DNA from: a virus
IMG/VR virus record: IMGVR_UViG_3300018432_000304
Span: 1-55,092 of that record
Strand: one strand, 5' to 3'
DNA: 55,092 nt
The position numbers were made by a program, and so were the translations under genes. The notes below the pieces were generated by a model. The model was not told where the DNA came from and searched no databases. It worked only from the letters and a program-made list of their open reading frames with translations. This document shows positions 19,601-52,557 of the stretch, piece after piece; position 1 is the stretch's first letter, and each line of letters starts with the position of its first letter.

Positions 19601-20397
19601 TCGGCATGACGACGCTGCAGACCACGGTGACCACCGGGATGACCAACATCTCGACCGCGGTGACCGAGGGGATGGTCACCGTCCAGGACGCCTTCACGGT
19701 CAACTGGACTGCGATCGAGACGGCGGCGGCCACCGCCATGACCAACATCGAGACCTCCGTGTCCACCGGGATGACCAACATCTCGACGGCCGCGACTACT
19801 GGGATGACCGAGGTCAAGACCGCCGTATCCACCGGCATGACCGACGCGGTCACCGAGGTCGAGCGGGGCGTCACGGCGATGGTGGCGGCGCTCGAGGGCG
19901 CGGTGGGCCAGTTCCGGACGGCCGGCTCGAACATGGGCGCCGCGCTGGCCGAGGGCATCCGTTCGCAGATCGGGGCGGTACGGGCCGCGGCCGACGAGAT
20001 CGCCGCCGAGGCGGCGCGTGCGGTCGAGGCCCGCGCCCAGATCAACTCGCCGTCGCGGGTGTTCATCGGCTTCGGCGAGATGATGGGCGCCGGTCTCGCC
20101 GCAGGTTTGAACAGGGGTGAATCCGAGGTCGAGCGGGCCGCCCGGTCGATGACCGACACCGTCATCAGAGCGGCATCCGCCATGGAAAGTGTGTTCGCCG
20201 CCGACACCTGGGCCACCGACTTCAACGCCCGGGTGAACACCAGCATGGCCGACCTCGACAAGTCGAGCGCTACCCCGGTGGGCGCGGCCGCGGGTGTGCA
20301 GATCACGCAGAACTTCAATGTGCCCAGCGCGGAGCGAGCCTCCGACGTGGCGGCCGCACGGATGCGCCGGATCGGCGCGATGGGAATCCTCGGATGA
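16699..20397 (+). CDS. Tape measure protein with 44-residue repeats
   Basis: 1232 residues, the longest tail gene but one. N-terminal half has repeats such as DTAGLRAQL (about 48 and 75) and strongly hydrophobic helices about residues 190-255. The middle (about 730-995) has six 44-residue repeats around VEMAINTAxLxWNTR. The C-terminal region has QINSPSRVFIGFGEMMGAGLAAGL, the classic tape measure end. It sets tail length and helps DNA entry. GTG 16699 is the start. Length predicts a tail in the long siphovirus range. Confidence 0.92.
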   Translation: MSSPGGREVGRVSVRVLPDTAGFRRDLKRAVDAAEAGLKVEIPVEFDVDTAGLRAQLEGIKAKVTIPVDLDLDTAGLRAQLAALDNSRVSIPVDLNLQDVGRLESTLARLRSKTIRLNVKANGVSQAIAQLTALDAVIRRVDGRRINVHVDVDAAAAAAQIAALEAALAGLSGSIGSIGSSGGQAMQGMQRGALQAAGALVLIPPLAAAVAVAGAGITAAYGAAATAVAAIPAAIALIAGPVAAVATGLDGIKRAAATIKPEFDAMKAAVSATFEQGLIPVFDRLADTFPRLTNGMQGTAVSLSDIGMRLAEMLASEPGLDRIDLLFANINKTLGDMSPGIAAAVDGFLIMGSQSGAFDVLSSAVNTFGQAFRSSVIETVSDGTLAGAMNGLEQLLDNLALAFVGAVENGLEVFAAAAPGVNAALESIGGFLDRFDWTSLGTSVGGVFQGLADGINSIPQGTIDAIEQSFADLATTFQSAEFGQAIQDIAVSVPEAIDLLNSAAKEFDTIAEGIKLTLETFNAVDQSFTGAIDGITGNIDRLREAMAKENNLDPKDPFGLATADDAIENIVRGWFGLPPVVSDAGNQTTGAAEDSFGKVPPAVDSALAGVPHAVAGQMDQVPVGVERPLNEVPPMVDSALGPVPAHVAAALANMSPEVAAALVTVTDAFQTGLTEMPAIVDAAFADLNAPIAAGMTSLATGITTGMVELRTALQTGFATMGVEAATGMMQVEMAINSSTLEWNTRIQAAMTLMQTTMSDGFVQIGASASIGLMAVEMAINTATLEWNTRIQAAMTLMQTTMSDGFVQIGAGASIGLMAVEMAINTATIAWNTRIAAAMILLQTTMATGWTDLGAGASIGLMAVEMAINTAVLAWNTRVQVGMTTLQTTMTTGWTTIAASTSISMMEVEMAINTAVLAWNTRLAAGLVVLQTTMSTGWTTIAASTSISMMEVEMAINTAVLAWNTRMQVGMTTLQTTVTTGMTNISTAVTEGMVTVQDAFTVNWTAIETAAATAMTNIETSVSTGMTNISTAATTGMTEVKTAVSTGMTDAVTEVERGVTAMVAALEGAVGQFRTAGSNMGAALAEGIRSQIGAVRAAADEIAAEAARAVEARAQINSPSRVFIGFGEMMGAGLAAGLNRGESEVERAARSMTDTVIRAASAMESVFAADTWATDFNARVNTSMADLDKSSATPVGAAAGVQITQNFNVPSAERASDVAAARMRRIGAMGILG
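18889..19680 (+). repeat. Six tandem 132-bp repeats in the tape measure gene
   Basis: GTCGAGATGGCGATCAAC recurs at 18889, 19021, 19153, 19285, 19417 and 19549, each exactly 132 bases apart and in frame. The last copies are almost identical over about 90 bases, implying recent duplication; earlier copies have diverged. Each unit would add a fixed length to the tail. Confidence 0.9.
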
Positions 20398-21281
20398 GCT
20401 TGTACCCGCCGTTCTACCCACCCGCCTACCCGATGGCCAACCCGCCACCGCTGGTGGCCGAGCGGCTCCTGGTCAACGGCGTCGACCTGGGGTCCTACAC
20501 CTACATGACCACCGACGTGTCCAGCCTGCTGAGCGTGGCCGCCCGGCGCGGCGAGGACGTGGTCGTGGCCGGGCGGCACGGCCAGATCCGTCGGGGCGGG
20601 CGGTGCTTCGACGCCGGCGAGATCGTGCTGCCGATGTGGGTGGTCGGCGCCAACCCGGACGGCTCGATCCCCTCCGGCGGGATGGAGCAGGGGTTCTTCC
20701 GCCGCAAGGACCAGCTGCTGCAGCTGTTCTACGCCGACGAGGTGGTGCTCGCGTTCCGGCGCCCGGACGGGCTGGAGCTCTCCACGCGGGCCACGGTCGC
20801 CGAGGTCATGGACTTCACTCGCCGCCACGCCGAGCCGCTGGCGGCGGTCTCGGTGGCCCTGACGCTGCCGGATGCGTTCTGGACCGACACCCAGGACGTC
20901 TCGCAGTCCATCACCGGTGTCACCGGGACGAGCGCCGAGCTGACCGCGTTCGCCGGCAGCACGGCGCCGATCGCGGACGCCCGGATCACCTTCCACGGCC
21001 CGGTGTCCAACCCGCAGCTGACCATCGGCGACCGCTGGGTGCGGTTCAACGGCCTTGTCGCGGCCGGGCGGCAGCTGGTGCTCGAGTGCGGGCACTGGCG
21101 CGCCACCTCGGGCGCCGGGCCGGCCTGGGACCCGTCGGAGATCCAGGTCTACCGGGAGCCGGGCCCGGCCTGGCTGGAGATCCCGGCCTCGTACACCCCG
21201 CTGACCGCCCTGTTCAGCCACTCAGGCGGCGGCAGCGCGACTGTCGAGATCGCCGGCAACCGCAAATTCCTCGCAGCGTGA
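20394..21281 (+). CDS. Distal tail protein (Dit-like)
   Basis: 295 residues. N-terminal Pro/Tyr-rich lead (SLYPPFYPPAYP), then LVAERLLVNGVDLGSYTYMTTDVSSLLSVAARRGEDVVVAGRHG, the belt-domain pattern of siphovirus Dit proteins. The C-terminal galectin-like region carries PDAFWTDTQDV and LTIGDRWVRFNG. It forms the hub between tube and tip. ATG overlaps the tape measure stop. Confidence 0.8.
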   Translation: MSLYPPFYPPAYPMANPPPLVAERLLVNGVDLGSYTYMTTDVSSLLSVAARRGEDVVVAGRHGQIRRGGRCFDAGEIVLPMWVVGANPDGSIPSGGMEQGFFRRKDQLLQLFYADEVVLAFRRPDGLELSTRATVAEVMDFTRRHAEPLAAVSVALTLPDAFWTDTQDVSQSITGVTGTSAELTAFAGSTAPIADARITFHGPVSNPQLTIGDRWVRFNGLVAAGRQLVLECGHWRATSGAGPAWDPSEIQVYREPGPAWLEIPASYTPLTALFSHSGGGSATVEIAGNRKFLAA

Positions 21282-21726: not shown

Positions 21727-23034
21727 GTGACCGTCCCGTTTTCCAATCGGTACACCCCGCGGACCTGGCACGACGGCCCCGGCGGTGGCACGCCGCTGAC
21801 CGCGGCCGACGGCATGAACCGGTGGGAGCAGGGCCTCGAGGCCCTCGACGTCGGCCTGGACGCCGCCGAGGACCGCCTCGACGCGCTGCAGGCCGCGGTG
21901 GGGCAGATCTCCGTCGACCGGATCCCGGCCGGGCCCACCTCACAGCGTCCGCAACCGCTGGTCGGACGGATGTTCTTCGACACGACGATCGGTAAGCCGA
22001 TCATCGGCAACGGCACCCAGTGGCTGGAGTTCGGTGCCGGCGAGGTGGTCGAGGGCCCCGGCAGCTCGACCGCGCCGGCGAACTTCACGGCGATCGTGCA
22101 GACCGACAACAGCATCGTCTGCTCGTGGTCGCCGGTCTCCGGGGCCTCGCACTACAAGCTGTACGAGGTGCGTAGCCCGGACGGCGTGGACGGCGCTACC
22201 GAGCTCACCACGACCTCGTCGACGCGCACCCCGTCGAGTACGGGCTACTACGAGTACTGGGTGACCGCGTTCGTCGACGGCACCGAGTCCGCACAGTCCG
22301 AGCACGGCATTCTGTCGCTGCCCTACGGATCCGACCCGGAGCACCCGGGCGACCCGGGCAGCGGCACCGGTGGCACGCCGGCCGAGGTGCTCGCGCTCGG
22401 CGCCGGCGGCGGTGACTGGAACCTCGGGGTCGGTCGGCCGTCTGGGCACGTCGACATCTCGCCGTCCGACCTGGAGAACGGATGGAGCGAGGCGCCGTAC
22501 TTCTACACCACCGAGGACGGCGCGTGGGTCCACTTCCAGGTCCCGATGAACGGGAAGACCACGTCAAGTGGGACCAAGTACCCAAGGTCTGAGCTGCGCG
22601 AGTACATCAACGGCAGCAAGGCGTCGTGGAACGCCGCGTCTGGCACGCACGTCATGAGCTACCGGGCGAAGGTCATCCACATGGAGGACGAGAAGCCGGA
22701 GTGCGTCATCGGGCAGATGCACGACGGCGGCGATGACACCCTCCAGATCCGGTGTGAGGGCACCGAGTGGGTGTGCAACATCAATGGCGAGACACATTCG
22801 ACCAGCCTGGGCAACTTCTCGTGGGGGACCGAGGTCGCCGTCGAGATCCGGATCGTCAACGGGACGCTCACGTTGAAGATCAACGGATCGACGAAGATCA
22901 CAACCAAGCCAGGGTGGGGTGGATCACAGTACTGGAAGATCGGAATGTACGCCCAGCAAAACGCAGCGAACGGGAACCCGTCCAGCGGGTACGCCTCCTG
23001 CGAGGTCCGTGACCTCGTCGTGTCACACAGCTGA
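21727..23034 (+). CDS. Tail protein with FnIII and PL7 alginate-lyase-like domain
   Basis: 435 residues. Residues 1-105 form a virion anchor (helix VGLDAAEDRLDALQAAVGQ). Residues 115-200 are fibronectin-III-like (VCSWSPVSGASHYKLYEV). Residues 225-435 resemble polysaccharide lyase family 7: RSELRE at 287-292, Q-M-H at 330-332 and YWKIGMYAQ at 402-410 match its three conserved strands. It likely cleaves a uronic-acid-containing surface polysaccharide. Codon use is visibly more AT-rich towards the 3' end, suggesting recent gain. Confidence 0.72.
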   Translation: MTVPFSNRYTPRTWHDGPGGGTPLTAADGMNRWEQGLEALDVGLDAAEDRLDALQAAVGQISVDRIPAGPTSQRPQPLVGRMFFDTTIGKPIIGNGTQWLEFGAGEVVEGPGSSTAPANFTAIVQTDNSIVCSWSPVSGASHYKLYEVRSPDGVDGATELTTTSSTRTPSSTGYYEYWVTAFVDGTESAQSEHGILSLPYGSDPEHPGDPGSGTGGTPAEVLALGAGGGDWNLGVGRPSGHVDISPSDLENGWSEAPYFYTTEDGAWVHFQVPMNGKTTSSGTKYPRSELREYINGSKASWNAASGTHVMSYRAKVIHMEDEKPECVIGQMHDGGDDTLQIRCEGTEWVCNINGETHSTSLGNFSWGTEVAVEIRIVNGTLTLKINGSTKITTKPGWGGSQYWKIGMYAQQNAANGNPSSGYASCEVRDLVVSHS

Positions 23035-23051
23035 TAGAATCTTGAAAAAGG

Positions 23052-23084
23052 TGACCCCGGGGCGTTGGAGCGCCACCGGGGTCA
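23052..23084 (+). terminator. Hairpin before the HNH cargo gene
   Basis: TGACCCCGG (23052-23060) pairs with CCGGGGTCA (23076-23084), with inner GGCG/CGCC. It sits between the PL7 tail gene and the HNH gene and separates their transcription or travels with the HNH cargo. Confidence 0.55.
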
Positions 23085-23109
23085 TGTCAGTCCTGGTTGG
23101 AGGACCAAC

Positions 23110-24060
23110 GTGGCGGAGTCTACGCCTGCCCCTGTCGAGGGCAAGACGTGCACAGGCCCTTGTGCCGAGTTCAAGCTATTCGGCGAGTTCTACGCCACTC
23201 GCGGCGGTCGCAGCTTTAGCAGCAGATGCAAGGTGTGCACGCGGGCAGACAACAACAAGGCCTACCGGCAGCGGTCGGACCGTACGGGTAGACCATGTGC
23301 ACCAGAGCCGATCCCCGTCGTGGACGGCCGAAAGCTCTGCGGTGACTGCGGCGAGAACAAGCTCCTGACCGACTTCACCCCCCGCGGTAAGGGGAAGTAC
23401 CGGCGAGAGTGCAGGGTGTGCAAGTTGAAGGCCGAGCAAGCTCGGCGGGAGAGCCCGGAGCACCGGGGTGCGTGGCTTGCGCGAAGGAAGGCGCACTACC
23501 AAGGCAACCGCGAGGCGATCCGCGAGGCGTCTAACGCTTGGCGCCGTGAGCGAGACGCCGCCGACCCGGCAGCCGCGAAGGCGCGGCGGCGGGTGCACTA
23601 CCTCGCCAACCGCGAGAAGTGTTACGCGGACGCCGCGAAGTGGAGGGCCGCGAACGTCGAGCGGCACCGAGCCAACGCGCGCAGCTGGGCTGCGCGTCAC
23701 CGCGCGGAGAACCTCGATCACGTCCGTGAGGTAGGCCGCCGCGCGATGGGCCGCCGGAGGGCTCGCCTGCGCGGCCTCCCGTCCGAGCCGTACACCCTCG
23801 TGGAACTGCTGGAACGCGACGGGACGGACTGCGTCCTGTGTGGCAACCCGCTGAACCTGACCGCGTCGTACCCAGATCCGAACGCACCGACCGTGGAGCA
23901 CCTTGAGTGCCTGTCGTGGCCGGGCGCGACAGCGGGCGACACCCCTTCGAATTGCGGCGTCTCCCACTGGGGCTGCAACAACGCCCGTCGCGACAAGCCC
24001 CACCCGGCCGCCGCCCGCAAGCGCGCCGAACTCCTAGCCGCGGAGGCTGCCGCCTCCTGA
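23110..24060 (+). CDS. HNH homing-type endonuclease with zinc ribbons
   Basis: 316 residues. Two N-terminal Cys ribbons (CTGPCAEFKLFGEFYATRGG...CKVC and CGDCGENKLLTDFTPRGKGKYRRECRVC), a long basic helical spacer, then an HNH-like core (CVLCGNPLN, VEHLECLSW, HWGCNNARRDKPH). GTG 23110 has GGAGG at 23099-23103. It interrupts the tail fibre genes and has no virion role I can see, so it is probably a selfish insert. Confidence 0.75.
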   Translation: MAESTPAPVEGKTCTGPCAEFKLFGEFYATRGGRSFSSRCKVCTRADNNKAYRQRSDRTGRPCAPEPIPVVDGRKLCGDCGENKLLTDFTPRGKGKYRRECRVCKLKAEQARRESPEHRGAWLARRKAHYQGNREAIREASNAWRRERDAADPAAAKARRRVHYLANREKCYADAAKWRAANVERHRANARSWAARHRAENLDHVREVGRRAMGRRRARLRGLPSEPYTLVELLERDGTDCVLCGNPLNLTASYPDPNAPTVEHLECLSWPGATAGDTPSNCGVSHWGCNNARRDKPHPAAARKRAELLAAEAAAS

Positions 24061-24081
24061 CCTAACTACAGAGGGAGTCGC

Positions 24082-27072
24082 GTGCCCGTCATCGAGCCTG
24101 TGTTCCCAGACGGGACGCCCTACCCGGTGATCCCGCCCGGTACGAACACGGTCAACGTGTCGACCTCGTCGGAGCTGTCCGACGCGCTGTCGTCGGCGTC
24201 CGCGGGTGACCGGATCGTCCTCGCCGCCGGCACGTACACCGGCGACTTCTCGATGAGCAACCGCAGCGGCACCGTCGTGGCCGGGATCTCGGTCGAGGCG
24301 GAGAACGTCGGCGGCGCGAGCATCGGGGCGGGGTCGACCTGGCGGCTCACCAACTGCGCCTACGTCACCGTGTCCGGACTGCTGTGGAACTGGCAGGGCG
24401 CGGGCGAGACGCTCCAGGTCCGCGGCACCAGCCACCACTGCCGGATCACCCGCTGCACGTTCGGTCCGAGCTCGCACACCGAGTCGTCGGATGTGCAGAC
24501 CTGGGTGTTCGTCGGCGACGACGCCTACCACATCCGGGTCGACCACAACGAGATCCGGAACAAGGGCACGTCCGGCAACGGTGTGCGGGTCTACGGCAGC
24601 TTCGACAAGGTCGACAACGGCCAGGGTTCCTCGGCCGGTTGCCGGTGGGTGCGGATCGACCACAACATCTTCCGGGCGATCGGGCCGGAGGTGGGGAACG
24701 ACAAGGAGCCCGTCCGGTACGGCGTGAGCTCGATGAGCCGGACGATCGCCAACGGGGTGATCGAGCGCAACGTCTTCCACGACTGCATCTGCGAGCCCGA
24801 GCTGATCAGCGTGAAGATGGGCGGCATCCGGGTCTCCGGCAACACGATCCTGCAGTCCGCCGGTGGCCCGGTGCTCCGTCACGGCACCAACTCGATCATG
24901 AGCCACAACTACATCATCGACCGGGCCGACACGTTCGGCGACACGATCGGCTCCGGCGGGATCCGCTTCTACGACGCCGATCACACGATCGCCCACAACT
25001 ACATCGACGGGATCTTCGGCGGGAACTTCCAGGGCCCCTTGCTCCTCGATACCGGCGACGCCGAGGGCAGCTCGACGGACCTGTCCGCGCACTGGCGGGT
25101 GATCGGCGCCCAGGTCGAGCGCAACGTCATCGTGGGCGGGCCCGAGGGCATCCGGATCGGCGACAACTACTCGAGCGTGCCGCGGGACTGCACGATCCGC
25201 GACAACATCGTCGTGGACACCGACTCGGGGGCGGCGATCACGCAGCGAGTCGCTCCGGCGGCCACCGTGCTGACCAACAACCAGTTCTACCGCACGACCT
25301 CGGCGGCCGGGATGACGGTGGACGCGGACACGATCGCCCGCAAGCCGGGCTTCGGGCCGCGGCTGACCTACCTGGAGCTGGCCGACGTCGGTCCGTCCGG
25401 GGACCTCGGGGACACCGACGGCACTGGTCTCGAGGTCGGCGGCGGCACCGCGCCGGTCGCCGTGCCGGCCGACGTGTTGAACATCGGCGACGAGGACGGG
25501 CAGAACCACTTCCAGCTGCAGTGGGCGGCCGACGGCGCCGGCTCGATCACGATCACGCAGTTCGCGGACGTGGCCGCCGGGTTCGCCGTCGACCCGTACT
25601 TCATCGTCACCGACCACTCCGGCGACGAGCCGCCCGCCCCGGCAGCCGTGCAGTTCCGGGTGCGCGCCGACTCGGCCACCACATCCGGCTCGTCGGAGCC
25701 GCGCTCGGAGCTGCGGGAGACCCGCGCCGACGGCAGCGAGATGGCGTTCGACGCGCTGGCCGGTGAGCACAGCCTGCGCACGACGTGCCGGATCACGCAC
25801 CTGCCCGCCAGCGACCCCGAGGTGACGGTCGCCCAGCTGCACAACGGCGTGACCGGCGACCGGATCAGCGTCCGCACCCAGCTGGTGAGCGGCCAGGTCA
25901 AGCTGCTGGCCCGGATCAACGGCACCGAGGCGATCCGGTTCGCCGAGTCGTACGCGATCGGCAGCGAGTTCACGGTCGAGCTGCGGGTCCGCGACGGCGG
26001 CCTCGTGGAGATCTTCTACGGCGGGTCGTCCACGCCGATCGCGGCGGGCCAGCTCGAGCCCTCCGGCGCGGGCGCGTCGTGGTTCTTCAAGGTCGGCGCG
26101 CACGCCGCGTTCAACGAGACCACCACCTCGGCCACCGAGTACGTCAGCGTGGAGCACCGCGACCTGGTCGTCTCTCATGGCGGGTTCCGGGTGGACGCGG
26201 GCGCGGACACGCAGGCGGTCGCCGGGCAGGTGTTCTCCCGGGACGCGATCGAGGTCGGCCTGACTGGGGTCACGTCGCGCCGGTGGACGATCGTGTCCCG
26301 CCCGCCGGTCCCGGACGACGACGATGACGATCCGGATCCCGACCCGGTCGACATGACCCAGGCCGCGATCCGGCACGGCTGGGGCACCCCACTGCCCAGC
26401 TCGGACGAGTTCAACTACGTCGGTCCGCCGAACTCCACGAAGTGGAAGCTGCCGGGCGCGGACTGGGCCGGGCACGCCGGCAACGGCCGCCGCCGCCCGG
26501 AGCGCACGACCGTCGACGGGTCGAAGCTGGTCATGACCGGCCTGGCCAACGGTGATTCCGGATGGTGCCAGCACCGCCTCGATCAGCAGTACGTGCGCTG
26601 GGAGGCGCGGATCCGCTGCTACCAGGGCGCGCCCTCGGTCGGCGAGCCGGACGCCACCTCCAACGGCAACGACTACCACTGCTTGCTGCTCATCTGGCCG
26701 GAGTCCAACGACTGGCCCGAGGACGGGGAGTACGACTTCTACGAGCTCGGCGTGCCCGGGCAGAACAGCCTCGAGGCGTACATGCACTACCCGCACGACC
26801 CCGACGTGTCCGTGCAGCAACAGCACTTCGAGAAGGCCGGCGTCGACACGTCGCAGTGGCACAACATCGCGCTGGAGTGGACGAGCACGGGCACGCGCGG
26901 CTACCTCGACGGCGTCCAGTGGTTCTCGGCGAGCGGGGGAGCAAGCAGCGTGCGCCGCAACATGCAGGACATGCCCGCGGGCCACCTGGTGATCCAGTGT
27001 GACAACTTCGACGGCACCGATCAGACCCCGGCCACCATCGAAGTCGAGTGGATGCGGGTGTACAACGTATGA
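24082..27072 (+). CDS. Triple-domain tail depolymerase: PL6 + PL7 + GH16
   Basis: 996 residues. Residues about 20-430 are a right-handed beta-helix of the PL6/chondroitinase-B family: CEPELISVK with Glu240 and Lys245, and LRHG with Arg266 match its catalytic set. Residues about 520-700 are PL7-like (RSELRE 541-546, Q-L-H 585-587, WFFKVGAHAAF 667-677). After an Asp/Pro linker (744-756), residues about 760-996 are GH16, with GEYDFYE giving the E-x-D-x-x-E triad (Glu883, Asp885, Glu888). It would strip several polysaccharide linkages at the host surface. A substrate cannot be read from sequence. Confidence 0.8.
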   Translation: MPVIEPVFPDGTPYPVIPPGTNTVNVSTSSELSDALSSASAGDRIVLAAGTYTGDFSMSNRSGTVVAGISVEAENVGGASIGAGSTWRLTNCAYVTVSGLLWNWQGAGETLQVRGTSHHCRITRCTFGPSSHTESSDVQTWVFVGDDAYHIRVDHNEIRNKGTSGNGVRVYGSFDKVDNGQGSSAGCRWVRIDHNIFRAIGPEVGNDKEPVRYGVSSMSRTIANGVIERNVFHDCICEPELISVKMGGIRVSGNTILQSAGGPVLRHGTNSIMSHNYIIDRADTFGDTIGSGGIRFYDADHTIAHNYIDGIFGGNFQGPLLLDTGDAEGSSTDLSAHWRVIGAQVERNVIVGGPEGIRIGDNYSSVPRDCTIRDNIVVDTDSGAAITQRVAPAATVLTNNQFYRTTSAAGMTVDADTIARKPGFGPRLTYLELADVGPSGDLGDTDGTGLEVGGGTAPVAVPADVLNIGDEDGQNHFQLQWAADGAGSITITQFADVAAGFAVDPYFIVTDHSGDEPPAPAAVQFRVRADSATTSGSSEPRSELRETRADGSEMAFDALAGEHSLRTTCRITHLPASDPEVTVAQLHNGVTGDRISVRTQLVSGQVKLLARINGTEAIRFAESYAIGSEFTVELRVRDGGLVEIFYGGSSTPIAAGQLEPSGAGASWFFKVGAHAAFNETTTSATEYVSVEHRDLVVSHGGFRVDAGADTQAVAGQVFSRDAIEVGLTGVTSRRWTIVSRPPVPDDDDDDPDPDPVDMTQAAIRHGWGTPLPSSDEFNYVGPPNSTKWKLPGADWAGHAGNGRRRPERTTVDGSKLVMTGLANGDSGWCQHRLDQQYVRWEARIRCYQGAPSVGEPDATSNGNDYHCLLLIWPESNDWPEDGEYDFYELGVPGQNSLEAYMHYPHDPDVSVQQQHFEKAGVDTSQWHNIALEWTSTGTRGYLDGVQWFSASGGASSVRRNMQDMPAGHLVIQCDNFDGTDQTPATIEVEWMRVYNV

Positions 27073-30000
27073 CCGGTCCGATCGACTTCGACGCCGAACT
27101 CGACTGGACGACGCCATCCGTCGAGGGCGACTACGTCCTGCGCTACGAGGTCGTCTCGAACGAGGGCACGTTCTCCGACGACGTCACCGTGCAGGTGGTC
27201 GCCGCGCCGACCGGGCCGCAGACCGTCACCCCGACCTCGGTCCTCTCGCAGGCGCGCGTGGGCGAGCCGTCGGTCGTCGTCGAGCCGCCGCCGGACGTCG
27301 TGATCACCTACCCGGGTTCGGGCACGTTCCCCGGCGCGGACACCTGGCCCGGCTACGGCCCGGCGGTCGGCCCGGTCGAGCAGACCGTGGTGCCGGACTC
27401 GGTCCCGTCGCGGGCGATCGTCGGCCAGCCGACCGTCACGGTGGACGAGGTCCCGGTCGTGCGGGAGGTCTACCCGGACTCGGTTCCGTCGCGGGCGATC
27501 GTCGGCGCGCCGTCGGTCACCATCGGCGCGGCTCCGCCGGACCAGCCGGTCACCGATCTGTCGCTGTCGCTGTTCGCGATCACCCCGGATGGGGTGTTCG
27601 CGCTGCCGGACTTCACGCAGCTGACGTTGTCGCCGGTGCGGAACTCGGCTGGGTCGCTCACGTTGGAGTATCCGGTCACGGGCGTGAACTTCACCGTGCT
27701 GCGCGACGCCATCACCGGCGGCCGGGATGTCGAGGTGGAGGTGTGGACGTCCGGGACGTCGCAGGGCGCCCTGCGCGGGTATCTGCAGGAGGCGGCGGGC
27801 GACGACACCGCCGAGGGTGACACCTGGCAGTTCGGGGGCGGGTTCCTCGGGCTGCGGATGGACGAGGCTGTGGTGCTGCCGCAGGATCTGGGTCCGCTCG
27901 TCCCGGACGACGATGACGATCCGGACAACGACAAGCACGCGAACGAGAAGCGTGAACTGATCTTCAACGCGTCCACGCCGGGCACGGTGATGGCGACGGC
28001 GATGCAGATCGCGCAGGCGCACGGTTGGCTGGCCGATCTCACCTGGGACTTCACTGCCGCCGCCGACTCCGACGGTGTGCCCTGGCCGCAGGTGATGTCG
28101 AGCAAGTTCTCGCCCGGCGCCACGTACACGCAGCTGCTGGACCGGCTGGTCGCGCTCGGCCTGGCCGAGTGGGATGTGCAGTGGACCGGCGCGCACCGGG
28201 TGCTGCGGATGTGGGTGCCGGAGGGCCGAGGCTCCGACCTCACCGTGCTGGGCGTGCCGGTGGTGTTGCGGCACGGGCAGAACATCCTCGACGCACCCCG
28301 GAAGTGGAGCGTGCGCGAGGCCGGGACGGACGTGCTCGTCGCCGGCAGCGAAGGCCTGTACGACGAGGCCAGCGACGCGTCCGCGGTCGCGCGCCGGGGC
28401 CGGCGGATCGCTCGGTTCGTCTCGGCGAACAACCTCGCGGATGCCGATGCGGTCACCGCGTACGCGTTCAACCAGCTGCCGGTCATCACCTCCGGCCTGC
28501 ACGAGGTCACGCACGGCATCGGCCTGTTGAGCGGCTCGCCTCGCCCGATCGTCACGTACGACGTCGGCGACTGGGTGTTCTCGGAGTCCGGGAAGACTAT
28601 GGAGCGGTTCCGGGTCGTGCAGTGGACCTTGACCGTGGACGCCGACCAGCAGATGTCGGGCACGGTCACCCTGAACGACACGCACACCGACGCGCTCGTC
28701 CGGTTGATGGCTCGGCTGGATGCGATCGAGGCGGGCGAGACGGTCGTCGGCACGAGCACCCCGCCGTCCGGGTCGCTGGACGACATCACCCCGCCGGCCG
28801 CGCCCGAGGGCCTGGTCGTGTCGAGCATCGCCTACCAGGACCCGGCGCACACCAACACCTTGGCGTCGGTGACGGTCGGCTGGCTACCGGTGGTCACCAA
28901 CGCCGACGGCTCCAACCACCCGCTGGTCCAGGCCGCCCGGTACATCATCATCGCGCTGGGCAACATCAACCCGGAGCAGGAAGACACGGTCGTCCACGAG
29001 GACTGGACGTGGACGGACTGCCCGCAGGTCGTGGCCGACTACAACGACCCCCTCCTCGAGATCTACGAGGACGACGGGTCGCCGGGTGGTCTGCCCGGGC
29101 TGGGTGATGTGCCCGCGCAGATCGTGTGGCTGCAGGACTACGTCGACTCGTTCAGCGCCACCCCGACCGCGACCGACGACGTCGACGGGTATCAGATCCG
29201 CTACGCCTACCAGGGTCTTGATCAGGTCGGCGGCATCCCGTCCTCGGACCCGTTCCCGGACGACGACCGGGTGTACTACGAGGCCACGCCCTCGAACGGG
29301 ATCCGCGGCACCTCCTACACCTTCGGCGGCATCGAGGGCGGGGCGAACCTGCGGATCGAGGTCCGCGCGTTCGACCGGTCCGGCAACTTCGGGCCGTGGG
29401 CGGCGATCGGGCACGACACCGCGATCGACGACACCCCGCCGCCGCAGCCGTCGCTGCCGACGATCGAGTCCTGGTTCCGCACGGTCAACATCAGCTGGGA
29501 CGGGCTCGGCGCGATCGGTGAGCCGATGCCCGTCGACTTCGACCATGTCGAGGTGTGGGTCGGGCAGGGCGCGGACATGTCCCCGATCCCGTCCACGGCG
29601 GGGCTGGCGCAGGTGTTCGACCCGCTGAACCCGCTGCCGCAGCACGTTGCGAACCTCTACGCGGGCGGCACGCACAACCTGCCTGACCTGGTCTACGGGG
29701 TCGGCTACTTCGCGCTGCTGCGGGCGGTCGACCGGACCGGGAACCCGTCGAACACCTCGGCGGTGGCCGGGCCCGCGACCGCGGAGCAGCTGGTCTCTGA
29801 CGACCTGATCAACGGGATCATCAACGACCCGGACAAGATCGCGAAGCTGGTCATCCAGACTGGGCACATCGTGGACGGCGCGATCGTCAACGCGAAGATC
29901 GCCAACCTGGCGGTGAACAACGCGAAGATCGCTGACCTCGAGGTTGGCAAGCTCCGCTCCGGCACGATGATCGCGCAGGTAACGATCTCCGGCAAGTTCC

Positions 30001-30953
30001 GCACACACGCCTCCGACGCTGCGGACCGAGTGGAGATCGATCCGGCCGGGATTAGGCTCTACGCGGGCCCCACGGTGATCGGCAACTGGGACGTGGCGAA
30101 CCGGTCGATGCTGGTCACCGGCACCTACCAGAGCGCCCTGTCCGGTGAGCGGATCAACATCTTCCCGGACGGCACGCTGCGCTTCTACCCGACCTCCGGG
30201 ATCAACTACTCGCAGATCTCGAACGTCGGCAACGATGTCGTCTGGAGAGGACCGATCGACTCCAGCGGCCGGTCCGGGCGGATCAACGTCAACGCCCTGG
30301 GCGTCGGCCTGAACTTCTCGGCCGAGAGCGAGATCCCGAACAACCTGCGCGCAGAGGTCGCCGTGTTCGACCGGCGGGCCCGCATCACGTCGCCGTTCAT
30401 CGCGTTCGAGGTGAACGGGAAGCTCGCCCCGACTGATGGGTCGCAGCGGCGCGTGCAGTTCTACCAGACCTCCTCGTCCGGTACGGCGATGCCGTACTCC
30501 TACCTGAACTACGGCGTGTCCTCGTCGTCGGGCCGGGGCGGGATGTGGGGCAACGGCGCGGGCTGGAAGCTCGAGGCCGGCAGCCTGCTGGTCACCGATG
30601 ACAGTCTGAACAGCTTCGCCTCGGTCAAGGCGTCCGACTTCGTGCAGTCCTCCTCGCGCGAGGTGAAGCGCGACATCCGCCGGGGCGAGCACGGCCACGG
30701 GTTGGGCATCGACATCCGGCAGTTCTTCCGCGACGTGCAGGCGGTGACCTACAACTACCGCGACGACCGGCCCGACGCTCCGCCCCGGTTCGGTGTGATC
30801 GCCGAAGACCTCCCCCCGGCCCTGCAGCGGCTCGGCTCCGACGGCAAGGGCGGCGTGGTGCTCTCGGTCGAGCTCGGCTCCCAGCTCGGGCTGCACCACG
30901 CGATGTTGAACGACATCGTCTCCCGACTCGACGCACTGGAAGGCAGCACGTGA
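27069..30953 (+). CDS. Large tail-tip protein with S74-type C-terminal chaperone
   Basis: 1294 residues. N-terminal repeats ending SRAIVGQPTV/SRAIVGAPSV, then a Gp37/Tal-like baseplate region (LSLFAITPDGVFALPDFTQLTLSP...TLEYPVTG), fibronectin-like modules with Asp-rich loops, and a fibre stem (NAKIANLAVNNAKIADLEVGKLRSGTM). The last 110 residues match the peptidase S74 intramolecular chaperone: SSREVKRDI has the Ser1195/Lys1200 pair, followed by FGVIAEDLP and a terminal coiled coil. It trimerises and probably cleaves itself. ATG overlaps the depolymerase stop. Confidence 0.8.
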   Translation: MTGPIDFDAELDWTTPSVEGDYVLRYEVVSNEGTFSDDVTVQVVAAPTGPQTVTPTSVLSQARVGEPSVVVEPPPDVVITYPGSGTFPGADTWPGYGPAVGPVEQTVVPDSVPSRAIVGQPTVTVDEVPVVREVYPDSVPSRAIVGAPSVTIGAAPPDQPVTDLSLSLFAITPDGVFALPDFTQLTLSPVRNSAGSLTLEYPVTGVNFTVLRDAITGGRDVEVEVWTSGTSQGALRGYLQEAAGDDTAEGDTWQFGGGFLGLRMDEAVVLPQDLGPLVPDDDDDPDNDKHANEKRELIFNASTPGTVMATAMQIAQAHGWLADLTWDFTAAADSDGVPWPQVMSSKFSPGATYTQLLDRLVALGLAEWDVQWTGAHRVLRMWVPEGRGSDLTVLGVPVVLRHGQNILDAPRKWSVREAGTDVLVAGSEGLYDEASDASAVARRGRRIARFVSANNLADADAVTAYAFNQLPVITSGLHEVTHGIGLLSGSPRPIVTYDVGDWVFSESGKTMERFRVVQWTLTVDADQQMSGTVTLNDTHTDALVRLMARLDAIEAGETVVGTSTPPSGSLDDITPPAAPEGLVVSSIAYQDPAHTNTLASVTVGWLPVVTNADGSNHPLVQAARYIIIALGNINPEQEDTVVHEDWTWTDCPQVVADYNDPLLEIYEDDGSPGGLPGLGDVPAQIVWLQDYVDSFSATPTATDDVDGYQIRYAYQGLDQVGGIPSSDPFPDDDRVYYEATPSNGIRGTSYTFGGIEGGANLRIEVRAFDRSGNFGPWAAIGHDTAIDDTPPPQPSLPTIESWFRTVNISWDGLGAIGEPMPVDFDHVEVWVGQGADMSPIPSTAGLAQVFDPLNPLPQHVANLYAGGTHNLPDLVYGVGYFALLRAVDRTGNPSNTSAVAGPATAEQLVSDDLINGIINDPDKIAKLVIQTGHIVDGAIVNAKIANLAVNNAKIADLEVGKLRSGTMIAQVTISGKFRTHASDAADRVEIDPAGIRLYAGPTVIGNWDVANRSMLVTGTYQSALSGERINIFPDGTLRFYPTSGINYSQISNVGNDVVWRGPIDSSGRSGRINVNALGVGLNFSAESEIPNNLRAEVAVFDRRARITSPFIAFEVNGKLAPTDGSQRRVQFYQTSSSGTAMPYSYLNYGVSSSSGRGGMWGNGAGWKLEAGSLLVTDDSLNSFASVKASDFVQSSSREVKRDIRRGEHGHGLGIDIRQFFRDVQAVTYNYRDDRPDAPPRFGVIAEDLPPALQRLGSDGKGGVVLSVELGSQLGLHHAMLNDIVSRLDALEGST

Positions 30954-31117
30954 GCAACCCGGACGAGATCGACGTGGGCGAAGTGCTCAACGAGCTGGAC
31001 CCGCTCGGCAAGGCGCTGTTCGAGGGCGCCCTGGGCCGGGTCCGGCTGCGTAAGGCCGCGGCCCGCATCGAGCAGCTGGAGCAGCAGGTGGCCGCGGGCG
31101 GAGACGTGGCTTCGTGA
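30950..31117 (+). CDS. Small helical protein
   Basis: 55 residues from GTG 30950, overlapping the previous stop: NPDEIDVGEVLNELDPLGKALFEGALGRVRLRKAAARIEQLEQQV. Helical with a C-terminal coiled coil. Stop overlaps GTG 31114. Phage genomes often encode such a mini-protein after a fibre; possibly a fibre assembly aid. Confidence 0.6.
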   Translation: MSNPDEIDVGEVLNELDPLGKALFEGALGRVRLRKAAARIEQLEQQVAAGGDVAS

Positions 31118-31446
31118 CCGCGCTGAGCTACGACCTGATGATCGACCAGGGTGCCGACTTCGTGGTCAGCATCCCGATCCTGGACCCGGACGGCGCCCCG
31201 CAGAGTCTCGTGGGGTGGACGGCCCGGGGGCAGGTCCGACAGACCCACGGGGGCGCGGTCGTCCTGCACGATCTCGAGCCGGTGAGCTCCGCCGCGACGG
31301 TCACGGTCACCGTCGACGCGGCCAGCTCGGCGGCCTGGGACTGGCGTGTGGGTGTCTACGACATCGAGCTGGTCGACCCGAGCGAGAAGGTGATCCGCCT
31401 GGTCCAGGGCCGGGTGATCGTCTCCCCCGAGGTGACCCGTGCCTGA
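31114..31446 (+). CDS. Small virion structural protein
   Basis: 110 residues. YDLMIDQGADFVVSIPILDPDGAPQSLVGWTARGQVRQ and YDIELVDPSEKVIRLVQGRVIVSPEVTR are recurring words of a small beta-sandwich protein found next to fibre genes in diverse siphoviruses. Likely an accessory of the tail tip. Ends within the next gene's start. Confidence 0.65.
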   Translation: MTALSYDLMIDQGADFVVSIPILDPDGAPQSLVGWTARGQVRQTHGGAVVLHDLEPVSSAATVTVTVDAASSAAWDWRVGVYDIELVDPSEKVIRLVQGRVIVSPEVTRA

Positions 31447-32239
31447 GCAGGCCGTGCGGTTCGACGCCGCCGGCGAGGACTACGTCGGGCCCTTGGCTCT
31501 CGGTGCGACGTTCACGATCCTGTTGTGGGCGCGCGTCGCGGCTGACCGCGACACCTACAGCACGATCTTCGGGTTGGACAACAACGTGGGCACCCTCGGT
31601 GCGTGCACGATGCAGACGATCTTTGACGGCACCGCGCTGAACATGACCGCCCAGGGCGGCACCGATCAGAGCATTCACACGATGGCCGTGGGTACCTGGT
31701 ACTGCTACGCGGTCACCCGCACGGCGCAGAGCGGCCCCACGGCGCTGCGCGTCCACTGGGGGACGGCCCCGGACGCGCTCACCCTTGTGGAGGTCGCGGC
31801 GACCGGCGGCTGGGGTGCCGCCGGCTACAGCCAGCTGCGGCTCGGGGAGTCCGCGTGGAGCGGCGAGTGGCTCGACGGTGACCTGGCCTTCGTCAAGATC
31901 TACACCCGGCCGCTCGACGAGTCGGAGATCGAGACGGAGCTCAGCCAGTACGCCCCGGGCGTCACCACCGACCTGCACGCCGCCTACTCGTTCTGGGACG
32001 GCCCGAGCAACGCCGACCTCTCCGGGAACGGGCGGGACCTGGCCGGTGGTAGCGGTGCGGCAACGGACGCAGGCCCGGTCGGGATCCCCTACCTCTGGTC
32101 GACGACCGAAACCCACCCGTCTCCCCGGGCCGGCGCCCCGGTGGTGGGTGTGTCGGTGCGAGCTGGTGCACCTGAGCGCGCGCCGAGCGTGGCGGCCGGG
32201 ACCCCGTTCAACCCGTTCCTCTACCCGCAAGGAGCCTGA
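31439..32239 (+). CDS. LamG-like lectin tail protein
   Basis: 266 residues. EQAVRFDAAGEDYVGPLALGATFTILLWARVA, GTWYCYAVTRT, LRLGESAWSGEWLDGDLAFVKIYTRPLDESEIETEL form a concanavalin/laminin-G-like sandwich. The C-terminal 60 residues (PRAGAPVVGVSVRAGAPERAPSV) are a short linker-like tail. No catalytic residues are seen, so it is probably a sugar-binding protein that complements the neighbouring hydrolases. Confidence 0.7.
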   Translation: MPEQAVRFDAAGEDYVGPLALGATFTILLWARVAADRDTYSTIFGLDNNVGTLGACTMQTIFDGTALNMTAQGGTDQSIHTMAVGTWYCYAVTRTAQSGPTALRVHWGTAPDALTLVEVAATGGWGAAGYSQLRLGESAWSGEWLDGDLAFVKIYTRPLDESEIETELSQYAPGVTTDLHAAYSFWDGPSNADLSGNGRDLAGGSGAATDAGPVGIPYLWSTTETHPSPRAGAPVVGVSVRAGAPERAPSVAAGTPFNPFLYPQGA

Positions 32240-32241
32240 CC

Positions 32242-33288
32242 TTGGCGACCGAGTTCCCCACCTTCGTTGACGTCCCCGAAGGGGAGACCCCCGAGCCCGG
32301 CACCCCGCTGGTGAACGCCGCCTACCTGAATGCTCTGACCGGGGCGGTCAACATCGTCGAGAACCAGCTGCCCGCGAAGGCGAACAGCGCCAGCCTGGCC
32401 ACGGTCGCCACCACGGGCGCCTACACCGACCTGGTCGGCGCGCCGTTCATCCCGGCCGAGCCCGGCGACATCGGGGCGCAACCGGCCGGGGCCTACGCGA
32501 CCACCACGGACCTGGCCGACAAGGCCGACGCCGAGCACACCCACACCGTCGGCGACCTCGACGCGACCGGCACCGCAAGCGCAACCACCTACCTGCGCGG
32601 GGACGGCTCGTGGGCCATCCCGGCGGGTGGCTCCTCCTACACCGACGAGCAGGTCCGCGACGTCATCGGCACCGCGCTGGTGCCCGGCGCGAACGTCACG
32701 ATCACCCCGAACGACGCCGGCGACACGATCACCATCGCGGCCACCGGTGGCGGGGGCGGTGGCGCGGTCGACTCGGTCAACGGGCAGACGGGGGTCGTCG
32801 CCCTGGACGCGGCCGACGTGGGTGCGACCGCGGTCAGCGTGGACAGCGTCCTGGTCGCCGCCCTGGACATCGACTCCGCCGCGGTCACCGCCGCCGACGT
32901 CGGCGCGGCCGGGCTGGACGGCGACGGCCGGGTCTCCGCCGCGCAGATGCCGCGGGTGCCGACCACCGTCCGCACGGTCTCCTACGCCTCCTCGATCACG
33001 CTGACCCCGGCCACGGACGGCAACCGGATCAACGTCACCGCGACCGGCAACATCAGCTCGCTGGCGGCGTCCACCACCGGTGCCGTCGACGGGCAGGTGC
33101 TGCGGGTGGCCGTGCTCGCCTCCGGCGCCGCCCGCACGGTGACCATCGCATCGTCGGTGCGCACCTCGACCGCGCTGACCCGGGGGCCGCATTCGGTCCC
33201 GTCCGGGGAGGTCTGGACCGCGGCGTTCGAGTACTACTCGCTGGCCTCGGCGTGGGTGCTCACCGCCTACACCACCTCGGCGTCCTGA
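32242..33288 (+). CDS. Tail fibre protein
   Basis: 348 residues from TTG 32242 (AAGGAG upstream). Fibre shaft words: ADKADAEHTHTVGDLDATGTASATTYLRGDGSW, VDSVNGQTGVVALDAADVGA, GLDGDGRVSAAQMPR. The C-terminal beta domain (NRINVTATGNISSLAASTTGAVDGQ) is of the tip type. Probably trimeric. Stop overlaps the GH16 gene start (TGATG). Confidence 0.72.
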   Translation: MATEFPTFVDVPEGETPEPGTPLVNAAYLNALTGAVNIVENQLPAKANSASLATVATTGAYTDLVGAPFIPAEPGDIGAQPAGAYATTTDLADKADAEHTHTVGDLDATGTASATTYLRGDGSWAIPAGGSSYTDEQVRDVIGTALVPGANVTITPNDAGDTITIAATGGGGGGAVDSVNGQTGVVALDAADVGATAVSVDSVLVAALDIDSAAVTAADVGAAGLDGDGRVSAAQMPRVPTTVRTVSYASSITLTPATDGNRINVTATGNISSLAASTTGAVDGQVLRVAVLASGAARTVTIASSVRTSTALTRGPHSVPSGEVWTAAFEYYSLASAWVLTAYTTSAS

Positions 33289-34136
33289 TGGCGTCGCGAC
33301 TGGTCAAGGCCACGATCGGCGGGCAGCCCCGGGTTGTTGACCTGCTCGCCGGGTCGTACGAGGAGCCCGTGCCCGATCCCGACCCGGACCCCGTGCCCGG
33401 CCGCGCGGTGCTGTTCGAGGACAACTTCGACGGCACGCCGGGCACGATGGCCAGCCCGACGAAGTGGTACTACGAGACCGGGGGCCTCGGCTGGGGCGAG
33501 AACGAACTGCAGGCCTACCGGCGGACCGCCGACAACGCCCACATCACCGCCGATCACATGCTCGCGATCGTGGCCCGCGAGGAGCCCGGCGAGGGCGGCG
33601 CCAACTACACGTCCGCGCGGCTGCACACCCGGTGGGCCGACACGCCGTTCACCTTCGTCTACGGCCGGATCGAGGCCCGGATCAAGGTCCCGATGGGGCA
33701 GGGCATGTTCGCGGCGTTCTGGATCGCCGGGGACTACGACGAGTTCGGTTACCCCGGGTACGGCGAGATCGACGTGCTCGAGACGTTGAACAACGCCGAC
33801 GTCGCCCGGTTCCACTCGCACCAGCCCGAGTGGGTGTTCGGCGAGGACACACCGGTGCACGCGTCCGGGTCGTGGGGCAACGACTTCCACGTCTACGCCG
33901 TCGAGTGGACCGAGGACTCGGTCGAGTGGTTCGTCGACGACGTGTCCTACGCGCTGCAGGAACGCGCCGATCTGCCCGGCGGGGCGACGTGGGTGCTCGA
34001 CGAGACCCGCCCGCAGGGAATCTTGCTGAACCTCGCCATCGGCGGGGACTGGGCGGGCCCTCCGGATGGATCCACGGACTTCCCGGCGACCATGCTCATC
34101 GACTGGGTGCGGGTCCTCGCCCCCGAGGAGGCCTGA
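33288..34136 (+). CDS. GH16 glycoside hydrolase, virion-associated
   Basis: 282 residues. The N-terminal 40 residues end in a PDPDPDPVPG linker, suggesting a virion anchor. Residues 41-279 are GH16: LFEDNFDG, WYYETGGLGWGENELQAY, YGRIEARIKVPMGQGMFAAFWI, and the catalytic GEIDVLE (Glu160, Asp162, Glu165). The sequence looks like laminarinase/beta-1,3-glucanase members, which cut beta-glucans. It lacks a signal peptide, so it probably reaches the target on the virion. Confidence 0.85.
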   Translation: MASRLVKATIGGQPRVVDLLAGSYEEPVPDPDPDPVPGRAVLFEDNFDGTPGTMASPTKWYYETGGLGWGENELQAYRRTADNAHITADHMLAIVAREEPGEGGANYTSARLHTRWADTPFTFVYGRIEARIKVPMGQGMFAAFWIAGDYDEFGYPGYGEIDVLETLNNADVARFHSHQPEWVFGEDTPVHASGSWGNDFHVYAVEWTEDSVEWFVDDVSYALQERADLPGGATWVLDETRPQGILLNLAIGGDWAGPPDGSTDFPATMLIDWVRVLAPEEA

Positions 34137-44182: not shown

Positions 44183-44556
44183 CGTCCCCTCACACGCGCG
44201 GCACCAGCATCTTCATCGGCGGCTGGGATCCACGCTGGCGGCTCATCCCGCTGTGAAGGGATCAACAGACCCGGTACAGATCGTCGCCGCTCGAGCTCAT
44301 CCCGGGGGACGCGAGAGTTCCCGTACCCACGGCCGCCGTCGTACCTCTGCCAAATCGGGTCTGCGGCGATCTCCTTCCCGGAGTCTCGCATCTGCTCCTG
44401 ATGCTCTCGCCGCGCCCGAGAGATCTCCGCACCCAGGCGGGCTGCCACCACGTACTGGTCGTTCGGCGGCAGTTTCGACAGCTCCGCCGCCAGCTCAGCT
44501 GGATCCATGTCGAGCACCGCCCGCCGCAGCGGTGCCGGGATGTGGCGTGGCTTCAC
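44179..44556 (-). CDS. Small protein after the relaxase
   Basis: 125 residues from GTG 44556, overlapping the relaxase stop. KPRHIPAPLRRAVLDMDPAELAAELSKLPPNDQYVVAARLGAEISRARREHQEQM: helical and basic, then a disordered tail. Position suggests a partner of the relaxase or the last gene of the transfer operon. Confidence 0.55.
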   Translation of the reverse strand: MKPRHIPAPLRRAVLDMDPAELAAELSKLPPNDQYVVAARLGAEISRARREHQEQMRDSGKEIAADPIWQRYDGGRGYGNSRVPRDELERRRSVPGLLIPSQRDEPPAWIPAADEDAGAARVRGR

Positions 44557-49903: not shown

Positions 49904-50550
49904 TGCACAGGGGGGTGGAGCTTCGCGTCGTCGTACGCCTGCGCATCCGCGATCTGCTCAGCTGACGGCTCCGGCGGAAGACCCTGCGACGTCCACGCAG
50001 CCGCGACAGCGCGCATGTGCCCTGCCAGCGGCGCAGCCACCGGAGAACAAGCCGCCGCGCCACCAGGCCGGTGCTTGCCCAGGTCACACGAGCCCAACGC
50101 CTTCTGGATGCGCTCCACGACACGAGGCCGCTGCTGGTCGTGCCACATACCGGCGTGCGCCCCCCACACGCGGGCCGCGTAGGCGTCGGCGTGCGCGGTC
50201 CGCAGCCACCACAGCTCCTCGATCACCCAGGGATGCCACGCCCAGCACGGCGGGAGCTGCACCCCCGGGTAGCGCAGGTAGACGGCGTCCAACCACTGCA
50301 CGAGGTCTTCGAGGAGCGCCTCGGCCTTGTCGGGGTCGGACAGCAGCAGCCACGACGCGGCCGGGCGGGTGTCGTCGATCCCCCGGAGGCGGTCGATCAC
50401 CCGCCCCAACGTTTCCCCGAGATCCCCGACGGCCTGGTCGAGTTCGCCCACCCGCTCCACCGTGGGCTCCCACTCGCCCACCCGGTGGGTGAGGCGGTCG
50501 ATCTCCCGGGCGAGCGCACCAACGTCGGGTGTCGGGTCAGTGGGCGACAT
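49900..50550 (-). CDS. DUF4913-like transfer-region protein
   Basis: 216 residues. N-terminal coiled coil (ALAREIDRLTHRVGEWEPTVERVGELDQAVGDLGETL), then LEDLVQWLDAVYLRYPGVQLPPCWAWHPWVIEELWWLRTAHADAYA, the DUF4913 signature found in actinobacterial mobile elements next to TraG-like ATPases. Function unknown. Overlaps the coupling protein end by 14 bases. Confidence 0.72.
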   Translation of the reverse strand: MSPTDPTPDVGALAREIDRLTHRVGEWEPTVERVGELDQAVGDLGETLGRVIDRLRGIDDTRPAASWLLLSDPDKAEALLEDLVQWLDAVYLRYPGVQLPPCWAWHPWVIEELWWLRTAHADAYAARVWGAHAGMWHDQQRPRVVERIQKALGSCDLGKHRPGGAAACSPVAAPLAGHMRAVAAAWTSQGLPPEPSAEQIADAQAYDDAKLHPPVH

Positions 50551-52300: not shown

Positions 52301-52557
52301 GACGTCACTACCCGGAGGCTGACGAGCAGGATCGCAACCAAGCCGATAGCCATCACGACGGGCCACACTGCGAAGCCACTGAGAACGGCGGCCACGAGGC
52401 CGCCGGCAGCAGCTGCCACGTCGAGGGCGAGCGTTATGCGGCTCATCGGCCGGTGCCTGGTGAGCCGGCGCCGGTCGACGAGGTTCCCTGCTACGAGACA
52501 GACGCCCGCGGCGATTAGGGCGATGGCCGCGGGATCGGCTACGACAGAGAGGTTCAT
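52297..52557 (-). CDS. Membrane protein of the transfer operon
   Basis: 86 residues from ATG 52557: hydrophobic helices NLSVVADPAAIALIAAGVCLVAGNLV, ITLALDVAAAAGGLVAAVLSGFAVW and VVMAIGLVAILLVSL. Start overlaps the DUF2637 gene's stop. Could be a spread (Spd)-type protein; inference. Confidence 0.6.
   Translation of the reverse strand: MNLSVVADPAAIALIAAGVCLVAGNLVDRRRLTRHRPMSRITLALDVAAAAGGLVAAVLSGFAVWPVVMAIGLVAILLVSLRVVTS

Follow-up and report, generated by a model that had tools for sequence, protein, structure and literature searches.

A predicted PL6-PL7-GH16 protein in the tail region of a putative actinobacterial phage-plasmid

A three-domain protein encoded among phage tail genes

The virus record IMGVR_UViG_3300018432_000304, analyzed here over its full 55,092 bases (the window; about 70% G+C), encodes a 996-residue protein (24082..27072, + strand, as are all genes below unless stated) in which a polysaccharide lyase family 6 (PL6) domain, a PL7 domain (PL7b) and a glycoside hydrolase family 16 (GH16) domain (GH16a) follow one another in that order. 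This triple protein, as we refer to it, was recognized by PF14592, by PF08787 and by motif and predicted fold, respectively, along with comparison to solved structures and a full-length homolog in a related record. A separate PL7 protein (PL7a), a second GH16 protein (GH16b) and a LamG-like lectin are encoded nearby; the five carbohydrate-active domains and the lectin that an initial annotation had placed in this tail region were all confirmed, and its open reading frame (ORF) coordinates agree throughout with the ORF listing. Terminase, portal, protease, capsid and tail genes are present in the window, based on matches to PHROGs. We consider it probable that the triple protein and PL7a are virion-borne depolymerases at the tail tip of a temperate, probably plasmid-like actinobacterial phage, and that they act on a matrix of uronate polymer and beta-glucan. 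Relatives of the window show the enzyme set rearranged, split and fused to a tail fiber.

Domain assignments and catalytic residues

The PL6 domain (24157..25401) matches PF14592 over residues 26-325 of the triple protein (E = 2.7e-38). Its alignments to the solved alginate lyases 7o84 (E = 4.1e-24) and 5gkd (AlyGC; E = 1.6e-23) are far stronger than that to the chondroitinase B structure 1dbg (E = 1.3e-8), and by these comparisons the domain appears closer to alginate lyases. Its initial description as a chondroitinase-B-like beta-helix was thus right as to family and less so as to nearest relatives. All seven residues that were checked (N206, E238, E240, K245, R266, H267, and R295) are kept in all four phages known to carry the module, namely the window and the records G001, G002, and G008. 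We take N206, E238 and E240 to be Ca2+ ligands, as in AlyGC. The positions of K245, R266 and H267 were fixed by alignment with AlyGC and 7o84, and they correspond to the catalytic Lys and Arg and the essential His that are described in part of the report on BcelPL6 (PMC6879350). In the alignment to AlyGC, R295 falls at the position of the conserved Arg with which BcelPL6 binds its substrate.

PL7 lyases are marked by the motifs RxELR, QxH and YxKxGxYxQ. Within the triple protein, PF08787 covers residues 475-699 (PL7b, 25504..26178; E = 1e-20) with no internal stop, and the PRSELRE and QLH motifs are intact (R541, R545, Q585, and H587). The catalytic strand (FKxGxYxQ) reads FKVGAHAAF, however, with the Tyr replaced by His674 and the Gln by Ala676. 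At the Tyr position the window has the codon CAC, whereas G001 and G002 keep the Tyr, both with TAC; the Gln is kept in G002 only. The claim that each domain of the triple protein has its key residues therefore fails for PL7b. Because the catalytic Tyr is lost in the window, we class PL7b as a PL7-fold domain and not as a proven lyase, and by its sequence it is probably only binding or weak.

PL7a (435 aa, 21727..23034), annotated from the outset as a second PL7-like protein, has an N-terminal part resembling a virion anchor, an fn3-like part and a PL7 lyase domain at residues 231-434 (PF08787, E = 3.4e-32). Alignment to 5zqi and 1uai showed its motifs to be intact: PRSELRE at 286, QMH at 330 and WKIGMYAQ at 403, with R287/E289/R291, Q330-x-H332 and Y408-x-Q410 all present. 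The N-terminus of PL7a matches PHROG virion structural and head fiber families as well as Gordonia phage genes, and the same N-terminal stretch recurs in further tail proteins of G001.

The C-terminal domain of the triple protein (GH16a, 26350..27069) was less readily assigned. In Pfam the window protein has only a sub-threshold match to Laminin_G_3 (5.2e-4) and none to PF00722, the cut-off of which is 22 bits; the homologous domain of G002 falls below that cut-off (17.0 bits), while that of G008, which is 60.8% identical to GH16a, exceeds it (41.3 bits). A phmmer search against the PDB reached a GH16 structure at E = 0.048. The motif E883-x-D885-x-x-E888 is invariant in the four aligned sequences, one of them just 38% identical, and is also found in G008, so that the triad is kept in all four phages. 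An AlphaFold2 model of the domain is of low confidence (predicted local distance difference test, pLDDT, 54.9; predicted template modeling score, pTM, 0.61), and its top matches among PDB structures are GH16 enzymes both by Foldseek (6xof, E = 4.3e-8) and by VIA-align (9xl7, Z = 15.6, root-mean-square deviation 3.0 A over 205 aligned residues). Against BFVD the model matched ConA-like viral proteins of 7-15% identity, mostly unnamed; the named ones include a Pithovirus GH16 and a siphovirus protein that resembles laminarinases. At the level of sequence and model, we regard the initial assignment of this domain to GH16 as settled, because the motif is invariant, the G008 domain exceeds the PF00722 cut-off and the predicted fold, for all its low confidence, matches the GH16 beta-jelly-roll.

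The assignment of GH16b (282 aa, 33288..34136) as a second, laminarinase-like GH16 protein is more direct, with a PF00722 match of E = 3.7e-17 (62.8 bits), a phmmer match of E = 8e-47 to the beta-1,3-glucanase 2hyk and an intact GEIDVLE motif at 159 (E160-x-D162-x-x-E165). No counterpart of GH16b was found in G001 or G002. The lectin is a LamG/ConA-like protein (31439..32239) with a match to PF13385 (Laminin_G_3) of E = 3.5e-8. Chance is excluded for the PL6, PL7, GH16b and LamG assignments because of their Pfam E-values.

Misaligned catalytic residues, which had been named at the outset as a sign that these might be mere binding domains, were seen in PL7b alone; key residues are kept in PL6, PL7a, GH16a, and GH16b. 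This bears on the proposal that the domains are degenerate and serve only as adhesins. The loss of the catalytic-strand Tyr and Gln from PL7b in the window fits such decay, as does the absence of a PHROG match for the triple protein. Yet all of the PL6 residues checked and the GH16a triad have been retained across the four phages, and the PL7a and GH16b motifs are intact, making a purely adhesive role improbable.

Probable association with the tail

The triple gene sits in the structural operon between the genes for the distal tail protein Dit (20394..21281; PHROG 33, E = 2e-7) and a central tail fiber or Tal-like protein (27069..30953; PHROG 31, central tail fiber J, E = 1.4e-9). The stop codon of the triple gene and the ATG of the fiber gene overlap by four bases (ATGA); this ATG lies at 27069, and the ORF listing also offers an upstream GTG at 27048. 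In G008 a single ORF of 1715 aa comprises the C-terminal half of PL6, GH16a and the tail fiber, without PL7b, and its fiber part is 34% identical to that of the window. Because GH16a is fused to the fiber in G008, we take the enzyme to be a probable tail component, and this fusion is the best evidence for that placement.

The same gene order has to be read with care, since a late structural-operon position would fit equally well a soluble enzyme that is freed at lysis and clears matrix outside the virion for the spreading progeny. The triple protein has no recognizable anchor, and no signal peptide was seen in it by eye, both of which are compatible with such a release. On the other side stand the fusion of its GH16a part to the fiber in G008, the four-base overlap with the fiber gene and the anchor-like N-terminus of PL7a. 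We consider release at lysis unlikely, and favor carriage on the tail.

Relatives and module shuffling

Four IMG/VR records hold the module: the window, G001 (41 kb), G002 (72 kb) and G008 (69 kb). G001 and G002 were found by scans with PL6, PL7 and GH16a alignments, and G008 via a relaxase alignment; the scans of IMG/VR viral records confirmed 1/67, 0/39, 1/33, 0/6, 2/65, 6/36, 3/65, and 2/88 candidate stretches. These scans overlook known relatives, as the relaxase scan missed G002 and the domain scans missed G008, so the module occurs in at least four records. Two further records, G003 and G004, carry PL7a and end inside it, and were left out of the scoring of triple genes.

Most of G002 is syntenic with the window. 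Its triple protein, 74% identical across all 996 residues, is 1329 aa long and has an additional N-terminal beta-helix-like domain for which no match to PDB sequences was found. The tail module is common to the window, G001 and G002 at 64-80% identity; in G001 this range extends from PL7a through the N-terminal half of PL6, with 67% for the fiber, and no detectable match to the window terminase or portal was found in that record. The four phages thus represent four natural variants: triple (window), triple with an added beta-helix (G002), split (G001), and split, lacking PL7b and fused to the fiber (G008).

The number of enzymes per phage is high throughout and their composition shifts, because the cassette 3' of the fiber differs from phage to phage. 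The window has the LamG protein and GH16b in this position, G001 has a pectate-lyase-like beta-helix protein (PF12708, E = 6.9e-16), and G002 has a PF12708-like protein (1.3e-5, just under the cut-off) and, after it, a LamG-like protein that shares 29% identity with that of the window. The variable cassette of G001 also has an ORF (L007 4848-5912) that by eye is TIM-barrel-like and resembles glycoside hydrolases; no Pfam match was found for it.

More distant homologs were also found. G005 and G006 have a stand-alone PL7 at 31% identity, which in G005 (71.6% GC) is a protein of 253 aa (L015 5842-6603) after a large tail-like protein, and G007 has a GH16a homolog (34%) within a secreted-type protein. 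Because G005 carries its PL7 as a stand-alone protein, phage PL7 reaches beyond this clade.

A split PL6 gene

In G001 the PL6 gene is interrupted after the codon matching residue 281 (L003 8838-9634). The insert is in frame and supplies about 265 residues of another beta-helix, and its stop codon overlaps the ATG of a second ORF in which the PL6 sequence resumes. The divergent G008 (L047) has PL6 cut at the same codon; the insert there is homologous, with 49% identity across 254 aa, and the second ORF begins at a GTG preceded by the Shine-Dalgarno-like GTAGGAG. The split leaves all of the catalytic residues on the first chain and the substrate Arg on the second. The ratio of nonsynonymous to synonymous substitution rates (dN/dS) between G001 and G002 is 0.23 for each PL6 half, so that G001 shows no decay of its second half.

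The G001 insert matched no PDB sequence, and no Rfam match was found in either the window or the G001 locus. We dropped a group I or II intron as an explanation, as the inserted ORF reaches the 3' junction and G008 has a homologous insert as well. An assembly artefact was likewise dropped, since two records from different samples share both the insert and its site.

A bolder proposal, which we put forward only tentatively and consider unlikely as a whole, is that these records represent a clade of mobilizable actinobacterial phage-plasmids with a modular, shuffled tail-tip degradosome, in which the split PL6 of two of the four would be a two-chain lyase that reassembles on the tail, its second chain fused to the fiber in G008; such reassembly would explain why both halves are conserved.

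Host and lifestyle

The portal protein of the window is closest to those of Gordonia phages (49-53%), and nearly all of the listed groups among the 845 matching records are actinophages. A MobF/TrwC relaxase-helicase (44553..48755, - strand; PF08751, E = 1.2e-45) is closest to MobF proteins of actinobacterial plasmids (up to 37%), and a TraG/TraD-type coupling protein is encoded at 50537..52735 (- strand; PF12696, E = 1e-18). Structural genes, a relaxase and a coupling protein, the combination expected of a phage-plasmid with transfer genes, are thus found together. The coupling protein is present in three of the four phages, the G001 record ending near its relaxase, and because all four records carry a MobF relaxase the lineage looks, from its gene content, like one of mobilizable phage-plasmids of Actinomycetota. 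Matches to tyrosine recombinases were obtained in G002 (short) and G008. ParA-type PF13614, the only partition or replication family searched for, was found in none of the four. INPHARED matches to the relaxase were limited to two records of Mycobacterium phage Adler and one unannotated fragment of a fecal phage.

A plasmid-like phase, as suggested by the relaxase, the coupling protein and a sortase, raises the prospect that the enzymes are secreted during lysogeny to feed the host; parts of a study of cellular enzymes describe similar multimodular proteins that serve alginate-degrading Actinomycetes (PMC13235733). We find this very improbable for the window, in view of the position inside the tail operon, the fusion to the fiber in G008 and the lack of a signal peptide by eye.

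A further question is whether the target is an external matrix or the actinobacterial envelope itself, that is, a uronate-bearing cell-wall glycopolymer together with a glucan. The closest plasmid homologs of GH16a (33-36%) are on Pseudonocardia plasmids (8 records); on the two inspected, both typed MOBF, the gene adjoins a transglycosylase-family gene and a MinD/ParA gene, as if for passage through the bearer's own wall in DNA transfer. The phages matched by the portal are actinophages. Conversely, the comparison of GH16a homologs covered plasmid and phage collections only, and we know of no actinobacterial wall polymer that is cut by PL6 or PL7. An envelope target is, in our estimation, a real but lesser possibility. 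The GH16 of the two inspected plasmids (L027 7536-8843 and L028 4536-5849) may be a glucanase of the conjugation apparatus.

Proposed function and its weak points

Under the favored reading of tail-borne depolymerases that act on an external matrix, PL6, and PL7a beside it, would cleave a 1,4-linked uronate polymer by beta-elimination, the former through Lys245, Arg266, His267 and Ca2+ and the latter through His332 and Tyr408. GH16a, joined in the window phage by GH16b, would hydrolyze the beta-glucan of the same matrix by a retaining mechanism (E-x-D-x-x-E). With these activities on one chain beside the tail fiber, the virion would be able to cleave two intertwined polymers as it approaches the cell. 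The pairing of uronate polymer and beta-glucan, already suggested in the initial annotation, is still the most economical reading, because alginate and beta-1,3/1,4-glucan are both attacked by cellular enzymes that combine these three families (PMC13235733).

Several observations weigh against this reading. Substrates are not fixed by family, because GH16 and PL7 each span several specificities. PL7b has its altered catalytic strand, the triple protein lacks a recognizable N-terminal virion anchor, and the full-length prediction of that protein (pTM 0.31) was too poor for a fold search. The tail module shared with G001 and G002 and the dN/dS values of 0.30-0.41 between the window and G002 for the PL6, PL7b and GH16a domains speak for the reading, but dN/dS is inflated by bias in G+C content at third codon positions (GC3). 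Pairs with G008 gave 0.42-1.0, most near or above 0.65, which we attribute to GC3 and codon bias together with divergence; these values are not interpretable and cannot count as purifying selection. Lastly, no host emerged from scans of genome contigs: 0/93 stretches were confirmed with alignment A1, a poor one that included an out-of-frame stretch of L003, and 0/99 with the relaxase alignment. Because relaxases are common in Actinomycetota, the empty relaxase scan shows insensitivity and not absence.

If the favored reading is correct, one virion delivers lyases and glucanases to a single spot, and one can then test whether actinobacteria embedded in a matrix oblige their phages to break down composite layers of polysaccharide. 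The four natural variants offer a ready-made series for studying how depolymerases are assembled and swapped, and with conjugation genes on the same elements, there may be a link between crossing the matrix and plasmid-like transfer. For the degradation of alginate and mixed-linkage glucan, too, the enzymes are candidates.

Neighboring genes

Upstream of the Dit gene lies the gene for the tape measure protein (16699..20397; PHROG 305, E = 1.1e-91). PL7a is separated from the triple gene by an ORF (23065-24060) that by eye resembles HNH endonucleases, with paired Cys and His motifs, and for which no significant Pfam match was found; G001 lacks this ORF, and in G002 the extra beta-helix domain occupies its place. 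The C-terminus of the central fiber is S74-like, its Pfam match to Peptidase_S74 being sub-threshold. Further downstream a phage-encoded sortase (36888-37499; PF04203, E = 4.7e-18) adjoins two proteins (35198-36046 and 36070-36891), one collagen-like and GPP-rich and one secreted-looking; the sortase has homologs in G001 (48%) and G002 (58%).

Comparison with known systems

The initial annotation knew of no described phage protein with this triple order, and none emerged here: tblastn at 1e-5 detected nothing related to the triple protein in the 50,697 phage records of INPHARED, the PL6 part alone had no match there at 0.1, and literature searches listed no phage protein joining PL6, PL7, and GH16. 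The PL7a query matched 42 INPHARED records, and among the matches listed (20 of 42) the best-covered involved the N-terminus only, 14% of the query. GH16b matched 15 records, mostly of Sinorhizobium and Rhizobium phages.

Classical phage tail spikes typically carry one catalytic domain. Like tail-spike and tail-fiber depolymerases, which are virion-linked, the proteins described here place polysaccharide lyases and hydrolases among the tail genes, but they differ in that PL6, PL7 and GH16 are on one chain with two further enzymes nearby. Their own link to the virion is predicted from operon position and from the fusion in G008. Among phages that make an alginate lyase to cross mucoid exopolysaccharide, part of one report describes Pseudomonas phage PT-6 and an Azotobacter phage, whose lyases differ in being about 30-37 kDa, without GH16 and from proteobacterial hosts (PMC5380687). 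The GH16-type beta-glucanases of the Sinorhizobium and Rhizobium phages phiM9, phiM12, and RHph_X3_15 are 28-31% identical to GH16b, but are stand-alone annotated genes of proteobacterial phages. The actinophage Mycobacterium phage Adler shares a related relaxase-helicase, at 25% identity across 37% of the protein; it differs in the enzyme, as no INPHARED phage record has a match to the triple protein.

The closest parallel is cellular. In the parts of their report consulted, Xu et al. (2026; PMC13235733) describe bacterial PL7+GH16+PL6 enzymes (CBM32-PL7-GH16-CBM32-PL6), tested representatives of which act on alginate, beta-1,3/1,4-glucan and carboxymethyl cellulose (CMC), and state that carriers of the types other than GH5+PL31 are primarily Actinomycetes; neither "phage" nor "virus" occurs in those parts. 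Compared by their description, these enzymes share with the triple protein the same three catalytic families on one chain, but they are secreted, have CBM32 domains and present the families in a cyclically permuted order. The family trio is therefore known, while its order here, its place in the tail and its shuffling among relatives are new within the searches made.

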